Positions 3,025 to 61,540 of a stretch of DNA of 64,000 bases are shown here, in pieces. Position 1 is the first letter of the stretch. The number at the start of each line of letters is the position of its first letter. Origin of the DNA: Synechococcales cyanobacterium GL140_1_metabinner_5_sub (lineage in GTDB: Bacteria; Cyanobacteriota; Cyanobacteriia; Cyanobacteriales; Chamaesiphonaceae). The stretch covers positions 1 to 64,000 of the forward strand of contig JANYHM010000077.1 in assembly GCA_025359065.1 (NCBI GenBank), written 5' to 3'. The notes beneath the pieces are model-generated. The model saw only the letters and a list, made by a program, of their open reading frames with translations, had not been told where the DNA came from and searched no databases. Position numbers and translations under genes: made by a program.

Positions 3025-3490
3025 CTATGGGAGACAAGAGATTTCCTTACAGCAGCTATCCGCCACCTTTCGACGCGGTGATTTGATCAGCAAGCTTTGA
3101 TTTTCCATGCTTTTGTCAGATTGTTGCTCGTTAATGCAAACTATTTCCTTGACCAGGCGATCTTGCCAGTATTCTGGATCTCGACGACAACTGCTAATTG
3201 CTGTAATCACTAACCTATCTGAATAGACTCTATACAAGATTACATAGGAAAACTTAGAAGTCAGGTAACGAAGGATTTGTCCTTCAATAACTGGCCACCG
3301 CTCTGGTGCGTTCACAATGCGAAATATAGAGCTTTCTATGGTGTCGATGAAGTTTTGGTGTTGGTCTTGCTGAAAAAAGAATTGAACAGCTTCGGCATAA
3401 TCTTGTAAAGCTGCCGGGTGGAATTCGTCTCGATTTTAGCACTTCAGCCCCAAGTGTGACTGAATAAGGGTCAATGTATCCGTGCTGCAT
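3025..3490 (-). pseudogene. ParE/RelE-type toxin, frameshifted
   Basis: The minus-strand frame ending at 3025 encodes a RelE/ParE-superfamily toxin: reading back from 3315 it continues in the same frame through EFHPAALQDYAEAVQFFF and FIDTIESSIFRIV before APERWP, the usual N-terminal half of such toxins, but that part has no start codon and is closed by a TAA near 3442. A second frame, from the ATG at 3490, runs MQHGYIDPYS...EVLKS up to an AAAA run just before that point; deleting one A joins the two frames. The C-terminus also extends about 40 residues beyond the usual RDPEYWQDRL ending. It is best read as a decayed or frameshifted toxin, with no recognisable antitoxin upstream. A sequencing error in the A-run is the alternative. 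Confidence 0.6.
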
Positions 3491-15253: not shown

Positions 15254-15513
15254 TCAGGACTAATTTATAGGTTTGTTTGGATGATAATTAGCCTTAACCA
15301 GCAACGAATTTTAGTCCCGAAGGGAATCCCCACCGTAGCCTACACTCTAGTCAAGGTTTTCTGTCTAAATATTTGTCTGAATATTTAACAGCATCACCAC
15401 CGGAGCTTTAATAATGTATGGAACCGTGAATCTGCTGAGCAGGAAATCGCAGAAACCATTTAATCCTGGCTCCTTATCCACGTTGAATTCTTCACCAGAA
15501 AACAATTCGATAA

Positions 15514-15780
15514 TTATTTAAATAAGTTTGAGTAGAACATTGATATGAAATCAACAGCTACCTTAACTTGTCCTTTGCTATCACCCCTTCTTCGCATCAA
15601 ATAATAGATGTTAAATAATCTTTCTGTCACTTGATAATATTTCTTCTTTCCCAATGTATTAACTAATTTGATTGCCTTCCACATAACTGCCAACGGTTTT
15701 CGCCAGTTTCCGTGGATTTACATCGTCCAAACCCTGAGAATACATGATTTTACTAGATAGTTTTCTCCAGATTAACAGCC
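15514..15780 (-). pseudogene. Frameshifted gene remnant, family unrecognised
   Basis: On the minus strand a frame from about 15780 reads IWRKLSSKIMYSQGLDDVNP and is then continued, after a one-base shift near 15720, by NWRKPLAVMWKAIKL, followed by TERLFNIYYLMRRRG and a stop at 15514-15516. Amino-acid composition is protein-like in both parts while the second part alone has only a 56-residue open frame from the ATG at 15684. It looks like the 3' end of a larger gene cut by the palindromic region upstream. I do not recognise the family. Confidence 0.4.
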
Positions 15781-15810
15781 AACAAATCTGTTGCCAACAG
15801 ATTTGTTGGC
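15778..15810. repeat. 33-base perfect palindrome
   Basis: Arms of 16 bases (15778-15793 and 15795-15810) are perfectly complementary around a single C. It sits just beyond the 3' end of the minus-strand nucleotidyltransferase gene, but no T-run follows on that strand, so a simple intrinsic terminator is unlikely. It may be an element end or a protein-binding site. Confidence 0.75.
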
Positions 15811-30239: not shown

Positions 30240-32756
30240 ATGGAAATCCATTGCACGCGCATTGGCTGTGCTCGCCCCCTCAACATCTTCCCGGAATTGG
30301 AAGACAGTGCGCTGCTCAAAACAGTTCCCCAGCGTCATTGCCATCACTGTGGGATGCACCTAATTTTGGATGGTCGGTATGTCCCTTTCCAACGACTGCG
30401 CCAAGGTGGTTTTGGCTCGGTTTTTTTGGCTTATGATCGGCGAACACCCACCATGAAGCGCTGCATTGTTAAACAACTGCAATTTAATATCAGTTTTACA
30501 CCAGATCAGACTGCTACGGCCACCACCCTGTTTCATCGAGAAGCCGAGGTTTTAGAGTCTTTAGGTGAACATCCCCGCATTCCGCGCTTCTTTGCCTTTT
30601 TAGAAATCGATGCCGAAGAATTCAGCACGGCAATTCCCCAAAGACTGTTGTATTTGGTACAAGACTATATCGAAGGCCAAGACCTTCAGCGCGAACTGCA
30701 AAGTAAAGGAAAACTCAGCGAAACAGAAGTGCAGCGGGTTTTGCAGGAAGTGTTAGAAATTTTAGACTTCATGCACAGTCGCAATGTTATTCATCGAGAT
30801 ATCAAGCCTTCCAACATCGTGCGGGATCTGTCAGGTAAATTACACCTGATTGACTTTGGTGCTGTCAAACAAATTATCAGCACTGCCACCACCATTGCTC
30901 AAATCCCGGCTCTGGGTGTTACCGGCATTTGTACCCCCGAATATGCTCCCGCCGAACAGCGCCAATGTCACGCTATTTATCCTTCTTCTGACCTATATGC
31001 TTTGGGCGTTACCTGTCTGCATTTACTCAGCGGTGAACATCCCCCCAACTTATTTGACTTTCGCAATCACACTTGGCTGTGGGACAAAGTAGAAATTAAT
31101 CAGCAAAGCCAACTCTTTTTGGTTCTCCAGCGGATGCTCAAGGAAGTCCCTGTCGATCGGTTTCAATCTGCCCGAGAAGCTTTGGTCAGCTTAAATGGTG
31201 CTAATGCCAATGGCTTAGGCAACAACAATGACACGGTCATTCCTTTAGATACTCACCCCCAACAATCACCCAGCAGATTTTTATTGCCTGCCAACCGTCG
31301 CTTGATAGCAACCGGGGTAGGAGTAACTGGTGGTTTGATGGCTACTGGCCTGTTGGCGTTCAATTTAATGAAACCAACTGCGGGTAGTTTTGGTAACTAC
31401 TCACTGTTAAAATTTGAGGGTACTAACGGCGTAGAATTTCAGAAATTCAAAGCAGATGGCATCGCGGCTTTGAGTCAAAAGAATTATCCGGTTGCAGTGC
31501 AAAACTTTCAGGCCGCGTTGACTAAAAATCCCAATGCGCCAGAAACTCGCATCTTTTTAAACAATGCCTTGATCGGCAATGAACCTAGCCAAACAATTGC
31601 TGTTGCAGTGCCAATTAACGAAGAAGAAAACAATTATCGGGCGCTAGAAATGCTGCGAGGGTTTGCCCATGCACAGCAAAATTTGAATGCTAACAAAAAA
31701 GCTAAAATTAAAATCGAAATTTTTGATGACAGTGATAAAAAAGAACAGGCTGAGGGAATCGCCAAACAGTTAGTCGATCGATCAGATATTTTAGGAGTAG
31801 TTGGCCACAATAGCAGCGGCGTAAGTTTAGCAGCAGCGGAAATCTACAACTCTCGCCAGTTGCCATTTATTACTCCTATGAGTATTAGTAGTCAATTGAC
31901 TGGCAATAATAAACCCTATATTTTTCGCACCAACGTGCGGGGTGAAGTTGTGGCTCAAGAGCTAGCTAACTTTATGTTGAATAAACACAAGAAAAAGAAG
32001 GCCGCGATTTTTTATGTTCCTAAAAGTACTTACAGTAAAGAATTGCAAGCGCAGTTTTCGCGGAAGTTAATTTCTGCTGGTGGTGAAGTTGTAGATTCTT
32101 TTGATATCAGTGAGGCTAGTAGCGTTGCTAATAGCTTAAATCAGGCGATCACCAAAAAAGCCGAAGTGATTGTCTTGTTTCCTAGCCACAAATACCGCAA
32201 AAATGCTTGGGCAGTGTTGCGAAATCGCCAAGAGCTTTACCCCAATACAGTTGTGTTTGGAGATATTGCCACTTTGTATAGTTTTGAAACCTTAAACGAA
32301 GCCCGTAGTGCGGCACAAGGCATGACGTTGGGGGTTTCTTGGCACATTGATGAAAAAGATACGCCTTTCTCCCGAGAATCGCGTAGCATGTGGCAAAGCA
32401 ACGTAAATTGGGCAACGGCTACTTCTTACAATGCTTTACAGGCCATGGGCACAGCCATTCAGTCAGATCCAAAACCTGCTCGTACTACGGTTCGAGATCT
32501 TTTAGGAAGTATGAAGTTTGCTGGTGCTGCAGGAGATTTCCAGTTTTTCAATGGTGATCCTAATGACCGAGTTACCTTGGTAAAAGTCGAGAAAACTGGA
32601 TCCGCTCGTCGTTACAGTTCGGGAACTGGCTACGACTTTGTGCCAATTAATCCAGTAGTTGGCAGTGTTCCTGTGCAACCTGTACCACAAACCTCACAGC
32701 AACCTCCTAAACAGGTGACAGACTTTAGAACGCAGCACAGTCGTGCTGCGTTCTAA
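30240..32756 (+). CDS. Ser/Thr protein kinase fused to ABC-type substrate-binding domain
   Basis: An 838-residue transmembrane sensor kinase. N-terminus: zinc-ribbon-like Cys pairs (Cys5, Cys10, then CHHC near 34-37). Kinase domain about 47-310 with RQGGFGSVF glycine loop, HRDIKPSN near residue 184 and DFGAVKQI. One membrane helix near 355-377. Then a short TPR-like stretch and a periplasmic-binding fold (type 1, amino-acid/branched-chain type) from about 450 to 800. Topology puts the kinase inside and the receptor outside the membrane. Such fusions occur in cyanobacteria; the ligand is unknown. The 3' end lies in a perfect hairpin overlapping the MFS gene start. Confidence 0.92.
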   Translation: MEIHCTRIGCARPLNIFPELEDSALLKTVPQRHCHHCGMHLILDGRYVPFQRLRQGGFGSVFLAYDRRTPTMKRCIVKQLQFNISFTPDQTATATTLFHREAEVLESLGEHPRIPRFFAFLEIDAEEFSTAIPQRLLYLVQDYIEGQDLQRELQSKGKLSETEVQRVLQEVLEILDFMHSRNVIHRDIKPSNIVRDLSGKLHLIDFGAVKQIISTATTIAQIPALGVTGICTPEYAPAEQRQCHAIYPSSDLYALGVTCLHLLSGEHPPNLFDFRNHTWLWDKVEINQQSQLFLVLQRMLKEVPVDRFQSAREALVSLNGANANGLGNNNDTVIPLDTHPQQSPSRFLLPANRRLIATGVGVTGGLMATGLLAFNLMKPTAGSFGNYSLLKFEGTNGVEFQKFKADGIAALSQKNYPVAVQNFQAALTKNPNAPETRIFLNNALIGNEPSQTIAVAVPINEEENNYRALEMLRGFAHAQQNLNANKKAKIKIEIFDDSDKKEQAEGIAKQLVDRSDILGVVGHNSSGVSLAAAEIYNSRQLPFITPMSISSQLTGNNKPYIFRTNVRGEVVAQELANFMLNKHKKKKAAIFYVPKSTYSKELQAQFSRKLISAGGEVVDSFDISEASSVANSLNQAITKKAEVIVLFPSHKYRKNAWAVLRNRQELYPNTVVFGDIATLYSFETLNEARSAAQGMTLGVSWHIDEKDTPFSRESRSMWQSNVNWATATSYNALQAMGTAIQSDPKPARTTVRDLLGSMKFAGAAGDFQFFNGDPNDRVTLVKVEKTGSARRYSSGTGYDFVPINPVVGSVPVQPVPQTSQQPPKQVTDFRTQHSRAAF

Positions 32757-32762
32757 AGTCTG
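32719..32762. repeat. Perfect 20-bp hairpin spanning the kinase stop and MFS start
   Basis: Arms 32719-32738 and 32743-32762 are perfectly complementary with a 4-base AGTC loop. The right arm contains the kinase stop codon (32754-32756) and begins with the GTG start of the MFS gene, so the MFS initiation site would be sequestered in RNA. TTTTTT follows eight bases after the stem, so partial termination is also possible. Confidence 0.85.
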
Positions 32763-33942
32763 CCGCCTGTTTTTTGGCGGACAAGCAATTTCTTTGATGG
32801 GCACTTGGATGACCCAAACTGCGGTGCTATGGCTGGTTTATCAGTTGACAGGCTCGTCGGTGTATTTGGGTTTGATTGCTTTTTTAGAGCAGATTCCTAA
32901 CTTTTTTTTAGTGCCCATTACCGGTGGCATTATTGAACATGGCGATCGACGTAAAATTCTGCTGATTACTCAAGTACTATCTCTGTTACATGCTTTGGCT
33001 CTAGCTTTATTAGTTTTTAGTCATACGGTACGAATAGAGTCTTTAGTTCTGCTCAGCCTCGTTCGAGGTGCCATTAGCGCCTTTGATATTACTGCTCGCC
33101 AAGTATTTATTGCCGATATTGTGACCGACAAACCCGATTTGCGATCGGCCATCAGCATCAATGCTCTTATTATCAGTACTGCTCGGTTTGTAGGGCCAGG
33201 GATGGCCGGGTTACTAATTACCCGCAGCGGCCTAGGAGTTTGCTTTGCTATTGATACTCTCAGCTACTTGGTGGTAATTGGCACGCTGCTGTGCATACGG
33301 ATTAGGACTTCGCGTTCAGCAGAAACAGGAGCACCGTGGCAAAGATTTCGAGCTGGTTTAGGCTATGTATCAAGTAATGCAGCTCTGCGATCGATCTTAA
33401 TTTTGTTGGCGGCTATGGGCTTTTTGGGTGGCTCTTATCCAACTCTTATGCCAATTTTTGCCCGTGAAACTTTTCAAGGTAGTTCAGAGACTTTGGGCTA
33501 TTTGTTGGCAGCGGCAGGGATTGGTTCGTTAGTGGGCAGTATTTATCTGAGCTGGCGACAAGAAAAGCGCCGCTTGGATCGATTGTTGTTGATTTCGGTG
33601 ATGGGCTTGGGTTTGGGTCTAATTGGCTTCGCTCAATCGCATGTATTTGGGCTATCGCTATTAATGATGTTTGTAGTTGGTTTGTGTTTAGTTATCCAAG
33701 CAGCAATCTGTAATATGTTACTCCAAATTTTGGTGATCGATCGGCATAGAGGAGTAGTAATGAGTTTATTTACGGTGGCCTACATGGGCATGACTCCTTT
33801 TGGTAATTTGTTAATTGGTAGAGTGGCAGCGGTAGTTGGAGCTAGTAGTACTTTGACTATTAATGGTGGATTATGTTTATTAGGGTTTGCTTTAGCTGGC
33901 AAAATTGCCAAAGAGTTAGCAAATGCTGATTTAGATGCTTAG
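32743..33942 (+). CDS. MFS transporter (EntS/DUF894-like)
   Basis: A 399-residue 12-helix exporter. The N-terminal LFFGGQAISLMGTWM, the VYLGLIAFLEQIPN helix and the loop GGIIEHGDRRKIL (MFS signature between helices 2 and 3) match the MFS_3/EntS group, members of which export siderophores or small molecules; the substrate is unknown. The start is GTG at 32743, since the family N-terminus begins immediately there and an in-frame TGA lies upstream at 32716. It overlaps the kinase gene by 14 bases in another frame and is probably translationally coupled. Confidence 0.88.
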   Translation: MLRSKVCRLFFGGQAISLMGTWMTQTAVLWLVYQLTGSSVYLGLIAFLEQIPNFFLVPITGGIIEHGDRRKILLITQVLSLLHALALALLVFSHTVRIESLVLLSLVRGAISAFDITARQVFIADIVTDKPDLRSAISINALIISTARFVGPGMAGLLITRSGLGVCFAIDTLSYLVVIGTLLCIRIRTSRSAETGAPWQRFRAGLGYVSSNAALRSILILLAAMGFLGGSYPTLMPIFARETFQGSSETLGYLLAAAGIGSLVGSIYLSWRQEKRRLDRLLLISVMGLGLGLIGFAQSHVFGLSLLMMFVVGLCLVIQAAICNMLLQILVIDRHRGVVMSLFTVAYMGMTPFGNLLIGRVAAVVGASSTLTINGGLCLLGFALAGKIAKELANADLDA

Positions 33943-33950
33943 GAAATCAT

Positions 33951-33979
33951 AAAAAAAGTGGACTGCTACAGCAATCCAC
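33951..33979 (-). terminator. Intrinsic terminator for the M23 peptidase gene
   Basis: On the minus strand a 10-bp stem with one mismatch (33970-33979 with 33958-33967, 2-base loop) is followed by seven T residues (complement of 33951-33957). It lies 33 bases beyond the M23 peptidase stop. Confidence 0.75.
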
Positions 33980-34011
33980 CCACAAAACCAGACTTAAATT
34001 GTTTCTTATTT

Positions 34012-35286
34012 CTACTGAGGAAGACGAGCTAAACGCATGGCTTGCTCTAAATTGTTTAAGGCATAACGAAGATCTTCGGCAGGATCTACTGTAACCCAAC
34101 CCTCTGCTGTAGGTAACTTGGTTTCAAAGTGCAAGTGCGGACCACTGGAAGCGCCAGTGCTACCTACCTGACCAATTACAGTACCTTGCTTGATCTCTTG
34201 ACCTTCTTGTACAAAGACTTCTGACATGTGGCCGTAAAGAGTCTGCAATCTACCATTGTGCTCGATGATTACAGCCTTGCCGTATCCGCCATGCCAGTTA
34301 GCTAATACCACGCGACCATTAGCAACTGCCACGATCGGAGTGCCACTTGGTGCTGCCAAATCTTGACCAGCATGAAAGCGACGGTTGCCAGTTAGCGGGT
34401 GAATGCGCCAGCCGTAGGGTGAGCTAGTGGGGGCTGGAGTAGAGAGAGGATAAACAAAGTCAGAATTAACGCTGTAACTCGACATGGCCAAGCTAGTAGG
34501 AGCGATCGAACCGGCTTGAGCTACTTGCACAGTAGGCAAGGGCGAAATTTTGGGAGCCGCTGGTCTAGAGACCTTCGGCATTTCAGCTATCTGAGGAATA
34601 ATATTCGACTGGGGTGGTGCCACATAGACGGGCACCGAGTTAGGAATAGCTGGCAATGCTGTTGGCACTGACCAAGAAGCCAAAATTTGGGGTTTTTCTA
34701 CCCGAACTTGAGGCTTGCGCGGCTGGGAAACAAATCTAGCACGAGCTGGAGCAACAGGTCTAGCAACTGCTTGCTGCACAACTGATGGCAGTGGCAACAA
34801 TTCTGGAGCGGCATCAGGACGGTAAGATACTTGGCGAATTTGGGGCTGAACATTGCTCATCAAGCTGCTAACTAGCTGCCGATCGGGAGTTTTTACCGTA
34901 CTTTTATTGGCAGTTAAGATTCCAGGCTGAGAACGATAGGTGCGCCGAAAGCTAGAAGTATTTTTTTGGACAGCTACGGTAAAATTATCTGCACCCAGCA
35001 GGTCTTTGTGGAGCTTTTTGTACTTGCTGCTCTCGCTGCTGGATGGGCCACTGTTGTCTATCGGAGTAGCTGAAGCAGTTTCTAGCGATTGAAACAGTGC
35101 AGCGTTAACTGATTGACGATTAGTTTCGATTGGCTTAATTTCTGCCCAAGAAACACTGGCATTGGCCATAATGGTCAAGCTGCTCAACCAGGTTAGTGCT
35201 TTTAGCAATAACGGGTGGCGAACTAACATAGACCAATGGTTGGTGGAAGTGGACTGACTGGATGGATTTTTTGCCTTAATTGTCAT
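34012..35286 (-). CDS. M23 family metallopeptidase (peptidoglycan hydrolase or activator)
   Basis: A 424-residue exported protein. A hydrophobic segment near residues 25-48 ends at an Ala-rich site (NASVSWA). A long Pro/Ser/Val-rich linker of about 230 residues precedes the C-terminal M23/LytM domain, whose zinc site is seen as RRFHAGQDLAA (His and Asp) and GPHLHFET (HxH), with LYGHMSE between. All catalytic positions are present, so it can be an active endopeptidase acting on peptidoglycan cross-links. No LysM or coiled coil was noted. Confidence 0.88.
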   Translation of the reverse strand: MTIKAKNPSSQSTSTNHWSMLVRHPLLLKALTWLSSLTIMANASVSWAEIKPIETNRQSVNAALFQSLETASATPIDNSGPSSSESSKYKKLHKDLLGADNFTVAVQKNTSSFRRTYRSQPGILTANKSTVKTPDRQLVSSLMSNVQPQIRQVSYRPDAAPELLPLPSVVQQAVARPVAPARARFVSQPRKPQVRVEKPQILASWSVPTALPAIPNSVPVYVAPPQSNIIPQIAEMPKVSRPAAPKISPLPTVQVAQAGSIAPTSLAMSSYSVNSDFVYPLSTPAPTSSPYGWRIHPLTGNRRFHAGQDLAAPSGTPIVAVANGRVVLANWHGGYGKAVIIEHNGRLQTLYGHMSEVFVQEGQEIKQGTVIGQVGSTGASSGPHLHFETKLPTAEGWVTVDPAEDLRYALNNLEQAMRLARLPQ

Positions 35287-60406: not shown

Positions 60407-60706
60407 ATGAGCAACATCACAAAATATCGGATGGTCTGCACGCTCTCTTTTAGCGATATCTATGGTCAGATCGTGGTGTGGTTAATGGTGATTTTTGTGA
60501 GCTTGGCATCGGCTCTATCTCTGTGGAGCAGCGCTCGCCAAATTTATGCCATGGCCACGGTTGGTCTAATTTTGGTGCTGTCTCTGCCTTTTTTACTGTT
60601 TGCCTTTGTCACCACTCTGTTGAATCACTTAGAGTTTTTACCTCTAGAAGATACCGAAACTACTCGGACAACTTCTCGGACTCTAGCCGGAACGGCTAGA
60701 GGTTAA
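60407..60706 (+). CDS. Small integral membrane protein
   Basis: A 99-residue protein with two strong hydrophobic helices (about 22-43 and 48-72) joined by a short loop, and a short Thr-rich tail. LSFSDIYGQIVVWLMVIFVSLASAL and LVLSLPFLLFAFVTTLLNH are the conserved-looking parts. The start may be at Met1 or at Met9 (MVCTLSFSD). Function unknown; the organisation resembles small thylakoid or plasma membrane proteins found across cyanobacteria. Confidence 0.65.
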   Translation: MSNITKYRMVCTLSFSDIYGQIVVWLMVIFVSLASALSLWSSARQIYAMATVGLILVLSLPFLLFAFVTTLLNHLEFLPLEDTETTRTTSRTLAGTARG

Positions 60707-60707
60707 G

Positions 60708-60763
60708 AATTCTTAGATCAAAAAGCGACCCAAATACTTGGGTCGCTTTTTGATCTAAGAATT
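60708..60763. terminator. 26-bp perfect hairpin, bidirectional terminator
   Basis: Arms 60708-60733 and 60738-60763 are perfectly complementary around ATAC. It lies exactly between the stop of the membrane protein gene (60706) and the stop of the convergent 2H protein gene (60764). T-runs inside both arms support bidirectional termination. Confidence 0.85.
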
Positions 60764-61540
60764 TTAAATATGAGCGATCGGCCAATTCTCTTCTCGTTGA
60801 TAATTGTTCATATCAGTGAACTTGCGCAGCTCTACCCGAGAAAAAGATAGCTCGGGAGCAGCTTCGATCCACTGGAGATTGAGATCTTGCAGCGTATGAC
60901 TAAAAGCCTGTTGATCGAACTGCTGCTGCACGTTACCAAAATAGGCAATGGTAATATGGGCAGTAAAATGATACTGCTGCTCTACACCTAAATCCATCAA
61001 ACCAGGGTTCTGATAGACCGATCGACGAAAGGCTATTACTCGATCGTAGCTTTCTTCGTTAGCCGGAACTAAGCTCACCGAAATCGCTCTAGGACGCAGC
61101 ATTAACCCCATGACTTGCCAGCGAACTGGTTCAGTACTAGTAGATTGATATCCGGCAATCCCTGCCGCAATTTGCTGACGCAGCTTGTCTTCAAAAGCAG
61201 GATCTTGATCGGCTAAATTGTGGTAAGAATTCGCCCAAACCAAATCGGCCACAGTCATGTGGAAGCCTTCTGGGGAAACCAAAGCAACTAAGTCTGGAGC
61301 AACCTGTTTGGCGATTTGCTCTTGGCACTGCTGCAAATTTTCATAGAACTGACGGTTGGCAGCATCTTGGTTGGCTGTGGGAGTAATAATCGAATACCCT
61401 GAAAACTCTACTGGCAGTCGTTTTTGACCTTGTAGCTCAAACTTTGGCGATTCCTGCAAAGTGCTTACCTGGGTGGCATAGGTGTCGGGCAAGGTCAGTT
61501 TTGCCACTCGATTGAGGTAGCTATGGTAATTATCATCCAT
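60764..61540 (-). CDS. DUF1868 / 2H phosphoesterase-like protein
   Basis: A 258-residue soluble protein with two H-x-T motifs, FHMTVADL (about 94-101) and AHITIAYFG (about 197-205), the hallmark of the 2H phosphoesterase superfamily. FELQGQKRLPVEFSGYSIITP near the start fits DUF1868. These proteins act on 2'-5' or cyclic phosphodiester bonds in RNA or nucleotides; the substrate here is unknown. The stop lies at the base of a large hairpin. Confidence 0.8.
   Translation of the reverse strand: MDDNYHSYLNRVAKLTLPDTYATQVSTLQESPKFELQGQKRLPVEFSGYSIITPTANQDAANRQFYENLQQCQEQIAKQVAPDLVALVSPEGFHMTVADLVWANSYHNLADQDPAFEDKLRQQIAAGIAGYQSTSTEPVRWQVMGLMLRPRAISVSLVPANEESYDRVIAFRRSVYQNPGLMDLGVEQQYHFTAHITIAYFGNVQQQFDQQAFSHTLQDLNLQWIEAAPELSFSRVELRKFTDMNNYQREENWPIAHI

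Follow-up and report, generated by a model that had tools for sequence, protein, structure and literature searches.

The hairpin and the overlapping genes

A perfect hairpin lies exactly over the start codon of a transporter gene, inside the end of the gene upstream. Is it a conserved control device, or a recent product of mutation? Both genes are on the plus strand of a 64,000-nt stretch of DNA, the whole of which is called the window here. The upstream gene (30240-32756) encodes a Ser/Thr protein kinase fused to a periplasmic-binding/ANF-receptor-like domain, as judged from its open reading frame, Pfam matches to Pkinase and Peripla_BP_6, and an alignment of the tail. The downstream gene (32743-33942) encodes an MFS_3-family transporter (Pfam MFS_3, 1.2e-42) and has a GTG start. 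According to the list of open reading frames, the kinase TAA occupies 32754-32756 and the MFS GTG begins at 32743, giving an overlap of 14 nt. The same start and overlap were found in a relative of the same genus, and a short stop-start distance or overlap of this kind is typical of translationally coupled pairs. An in-frame TGA lies at 32716-32718, with no other ATG, GTG or TTG between it and 32743, so this GTG is the only common in-frame start before the N-terminal motif of the transporter. Past the MFS gene, a terminator-like hairpin with a T-tail is located on the minus strand (33956-33981), between this gene and a convergent minus-strand gene (34012-35286) whose sequence suggests a putative M23-type peptidase.

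The hairpin, which the initial annotation placed at 32719-32762 with 20 bp, is real, correctly located and very strong. The left arm (32719-32738, +) pairs with the right arm (32743-32762, +) at 20 of 20 positions, and they are separated by the 4-nt loop AGTC (32739-32742, +). The inverted repeat extends even further than had been claimed, matching at 28 of 30 positions over 30 nt (32709-32738 with 32743-32772). In this outer part, AAACAGGTGA (32709-32718, +) pairs with the MFS-coding CCGCCTGTTT (32763-32772, +) except for one mismatch and one G-U. The right arm comprises MFS codons 1-7 (GTG CTG CGT TCT AAA GTC TG); as annotated, it opens with the MFS start codon and contains the kinase stop. 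The arms were also said to be coding in the kinase. This holds up to the TAA; past that stop codon, the right arm has 6 more nt, which are constrained by the MFS frame only.

The stem core folds at -35 kcal/mol. The RNA fold of the 111-nt region has a z-score of -9.4, and none of 200 shuffled sequences was equally stable. Chance pairing could be excluded, because perfect stems reached 13 bp at most when the window was simulated with a first-order Markov model (n=20). The 3.9-Mb genome contains no second copy of the stem, so the hairpin is no repeat element, and an interspersed palindromic repeat was rejected on this ground. Rfam returned no family at gathering score, with sub-threshold chance matches only. 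We also took a census of hairpins in about 199 kb of the window's genome and 310 kb of the same-genus relative. The former contained 23 perfect stems of at least 10 bp, including one of 26 bp in the window, so that long perfect stems are no rarity in this genome. Nearly all long stems in this sample were intergenic and many were terminator-like; the hairpin at 32719-32762 was the sole long stem at a gene-gene overlap.

Comparison with related genomes

The window's genome (G000) was compared with G001 of the same genus and with three more distant genomes: G025 and G052, which belong to its order, and G046. The kinase and MFS genes are adjacent in G000, G001, G025 and G052. In G001, the nucleotide identity with the window is 86% in the kinase body and 87% in the MFS gene. 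The gene order, GTG start, 14-nt overlap, loop and its position, T-run and right arm (19/20) are all the same. The left arm is absent, and the G001 kinase tail has CAGCCGGTGCAACAATAT in its place. The two halves of the junction read CTAAACAGCCGGTGCAACAATATAGTC and GTGCTGCGTTCTAAAGCCTGCCGCCTGTTTTTTGG in G001, and CTAAACAGGTGACAGACTTTAGAACGCAGCACAGTC and GTGCTGCGTTCTAAAGTCTGCCGCCTGTTTTTTGG in the window. Both reading frames are kept in G001, as SRAAF followed by the stop and as VLRSKxCRLFFGGQ, and the identity between the arms is 8/30 there versus 28/30 in the window.

In G025 (62% amino acid identity) and G052 (53%), the gene order is kept, with neither the overlap nor the stem; a homologous kinase tail is absent as well. 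At the G046 locus, no perfect stem of at least 10 bp was found, and a receptor-domain gene adjoins a broken MFS reading frame. The MFS match at this locus (L025, G046:C16) is divided between two frames that overlap, which suggests decay or a frameshift in this copy of the kinase-MFS pair. A scan of genome contigs returned the G001 locus and two distant MFS genes only, and a family-level DNA search gave no additional junction with the stem. Thus the genes are neighbours and the stem is missing at all four orthologous junctions (G001, G025, G052 and G046), which leaves no conserved or covarying structure among them. Since orthologues share the gene order without a conserved stem, the initial annotation's reading of the hairpin as a conserved lock on the start codon fails.

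Stems of 10 bp or more were lacking in the first 60 kb of G001, which could mean that hairpins were lost in its assembly. The larger G001 sample yielded 23 such stems in 310 kb, and the core of a terminator corresponding to the window's hairpin at 60703 is retained. The absence of the stem from the G001 junction is therefore credible.

Probable origin by template switch

The hairpin is very probably a lineage-specific inverted duplication of the MFS 5' end, made by a quasipalindrome-type template switch. A stretch of the unconstrained kinase tail would have given way to a reverse-complement copy of the adjoining MFS 5' end (~20 nt), with the reading frame kept. The most likely route is an intrastrand switch of template at replication, although both the mechanism and the direction of copying are inferred.

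Several observations support this origin. The arms are near-identical reverse complements, adjacent and closely spaced (20/20, 28/30, 4-nt loop), as template switching would leave them. In G001 the inverted repeat is less perfect and one arm is unchanged: the right arm matches at 19/20, and only AAACAG/CTGTTT is common to the two repeats. A minus-strand BLAST match was also found between the window's left arm and G001's own right arm. The right arm encodes an N-terminal motif, LRS(K/R)NxRLFFGGQ, which is found again in MFS homologues of other members of the order. Among these are 19 loci for which tblastn detected no kinase or receptor gene in the flanking sequence covered. This recurrence implies that the right arm is old sequence and the source of the copy. 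In contrast, the kinase C-terminal tail after YDFVP is not conserved, being absent, unrelated or of another length in relatives, so the left arm would be the new sequence. The length and sequence of this tail differ even between the window and G001. The symmetry had been proposed to be constrained from two sides, but its left arm sits in a stretch that is free to vary within the genus.

The right-arm base at 32759 differs from G001; its left-arm partner, 32722, matches it. Since these two bases pair and the arms are perfect, the copying either postdates the substitution at 32759 or the substitution was compensated. The AAACAG within 32709-32718 belongs to an older AAACAG...CTGTTT inverted repeat that both species have, which is a possible seed and perhaps aided the switch. 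There is no obvious seed beside the loop in G001. With G001 as the one close relative compared, a gain in the window's lineage is more likely than a loss in G001, though not proven; the outgroups have no stem, but G025 and G052 have no homologous tail either.

Mutation by template switching at quasipalindromes is established for E. coli (PMC7202029), and it homogenises the arms of inverted repeats in yeast coding DNA (PMC8604942). As in those systems, where coding DNA can be altered, a segment would have become an exact inverted copy of nearby sequence, with perfect arms and a short loop. Unlike those mutations, the event here is deduced from a comparison of species, the replaced segment is long (~20 nt), and the relative has no inner seed.

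Taken together, the comparison indicates that the hairpin most likely arose recently, in this species, by inverted duplication over a pre-existing overlap, and is not a conserved control switch. A striking perfect hairpin exactly over a start codon can thus be a recent mutational by-product, in which one arm is conserved coding sequence and the other a copy inserted in a dispensable protein tail. The dispensability of the tail might also be why the stem is otherwise tolerated.

Possible consequences for translation of the MFS gene

The start codon was described as buried in the stem, and folding in silico bears this out. Opening the start region is predicted to cost 30.8 kcal/mol in the window, as against 10.7 in G001, 11.2 in G025 and 7.4 in G052. 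In the mRNA, the stem would cover the MFS start and be opened by ribosomes completing the kinase gene. Given the rise in predicted cost from the G001 value, it may reinforce a coupling for which the 14-nt overlap was most likely sufficient before. Coupling of the two genes from this overlap alone is plausible, and it is probably older than the hairpin. Should most ribosomes on the MFS gene come from the kinase gene they have just finished, the stem would be melted each time and may matter little; should independent initiation count in the relatives, it would be suppressed by the stem in the window's species. A regulatory side effect of the hairpin, or a function taken on after it arose, is possible but unproven.

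The hairpin might instead be a selected switch that silences the MFS start until kinase-translating ribosomes melt it, as in the RNA-unfolding model of coupling. We consider this improbable. The buried start codon with its raised opening cost and the 14-nt overlap would suit such a switch, and silencing of coupled genes by start-covering structure is well documented (review PMC12548453). Against it, the stem is missing in all four relatives though the genes remain neighbours, no Shine-Dalgarno-like sequence was seen upstream of the GTG, and re-initiation, which is described alongside unfolding as a coupling model (PMC12548453), requires no stem. When coupled genes lie close together, the next ribosome must await the departure of the terminating one (PMC12548453). 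Here the GTG lies physically under any ribosome that terminates at 32756, so melting the stem would not admit a fresh one. In cyanobacteria, overlapping pairs are few and Shine-Dalgarno motifs are used sparingly in de novo initiation (PMC6728339).

The junction resembles known coupled pairs with a structured downstream start (PMC6728339, PMC12548453) in its co-directed overlap and in the pairing of the start with upstream coding sequence. It differs from them in that orthologous pairs do not share the stem and the coupling is putative. A stable mRNA structure near the stop codon of an operon gene is likewise known as a ribosome termination structure (PMC7518266); there the structure follows directly after the stop, whereas here the stop is within a stem arm.

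The initial annotation had proposed strict coupling. A version of this that fits a recent origin is that one template-switch event in one species created a regulatory structure de novo and made the overlapping MFS gene strictly dependent on kinase translation. Such an outcome is unlikely, though slightly less so than a selected switch; if true, the birth of a regulatory structure would have been caught between two sister species. The sister genomes with and without the hairpin would provide a clean natural test of the effect of a start-codon hairpin on expression in an overlapping pair.

Less likely readings: terminator and artefact

The stem and the T-run might also serve as a transcription attenuator or terminator where the kinase gene ends, stopping transcripts when kinase translation fails. 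The very stable stem and the six T at 32770-32775 (+) fit this, and the T-run on which attenuation had been proposed does exist. An intrinsic terminator has its stem followed directly by a U-run, but this run starts 8 nt past the base of the perfect stem, half of it is consumed by the extended stem, and the junction is absent from the terminator-scan list. The run consists of conserved Phe codons of the MFS gene, which occur in G001 without the stem, and it makes no convincing terminator tail. We regard attenuation here as very unlikely. A fold-back chimera from assembly or sequencing of the window's genome is the least probable explanation: inverted duplications are a recognised artefact of some library methods, but both reading frames are intact across the event, the flanks are collinear with G001 for about 20 kb, and the site is internal to an 82-kb contig.

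Other hairpins

Another hairpin in the window (60703-60768), 26 bp perfect and 94% over 31 nt, lies between convergent genes at 60407-60706 (+) and 60764-61540 (-). G001 retains its inner terminator core only (AAAAAGCGACC/GGGTCGCTTTTT), and the outer ~12 bp are complementary in the window's species only. This outer stem is possibly a second template-switch extension in the window's lineage. A 16-bp perfect palindrome with a 1-nt loop was found at 15778-15810, in a stretch without an open reading frame of at least 120 aa. A nearby segment, at about 15390-15510, has matches at several sites in G001, which suggests a dispersed repeat or a multi-copy domain. When other hairpins of the window were searched for in G001, the matches were spread across different contigs. 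One G001 locus (L069, G001:C144) carries the palindrome TTGGAGGAAAACGTTTTCCTCCAA twice, at 1946-1975 and 3266-3289, 1.3 kb apart.
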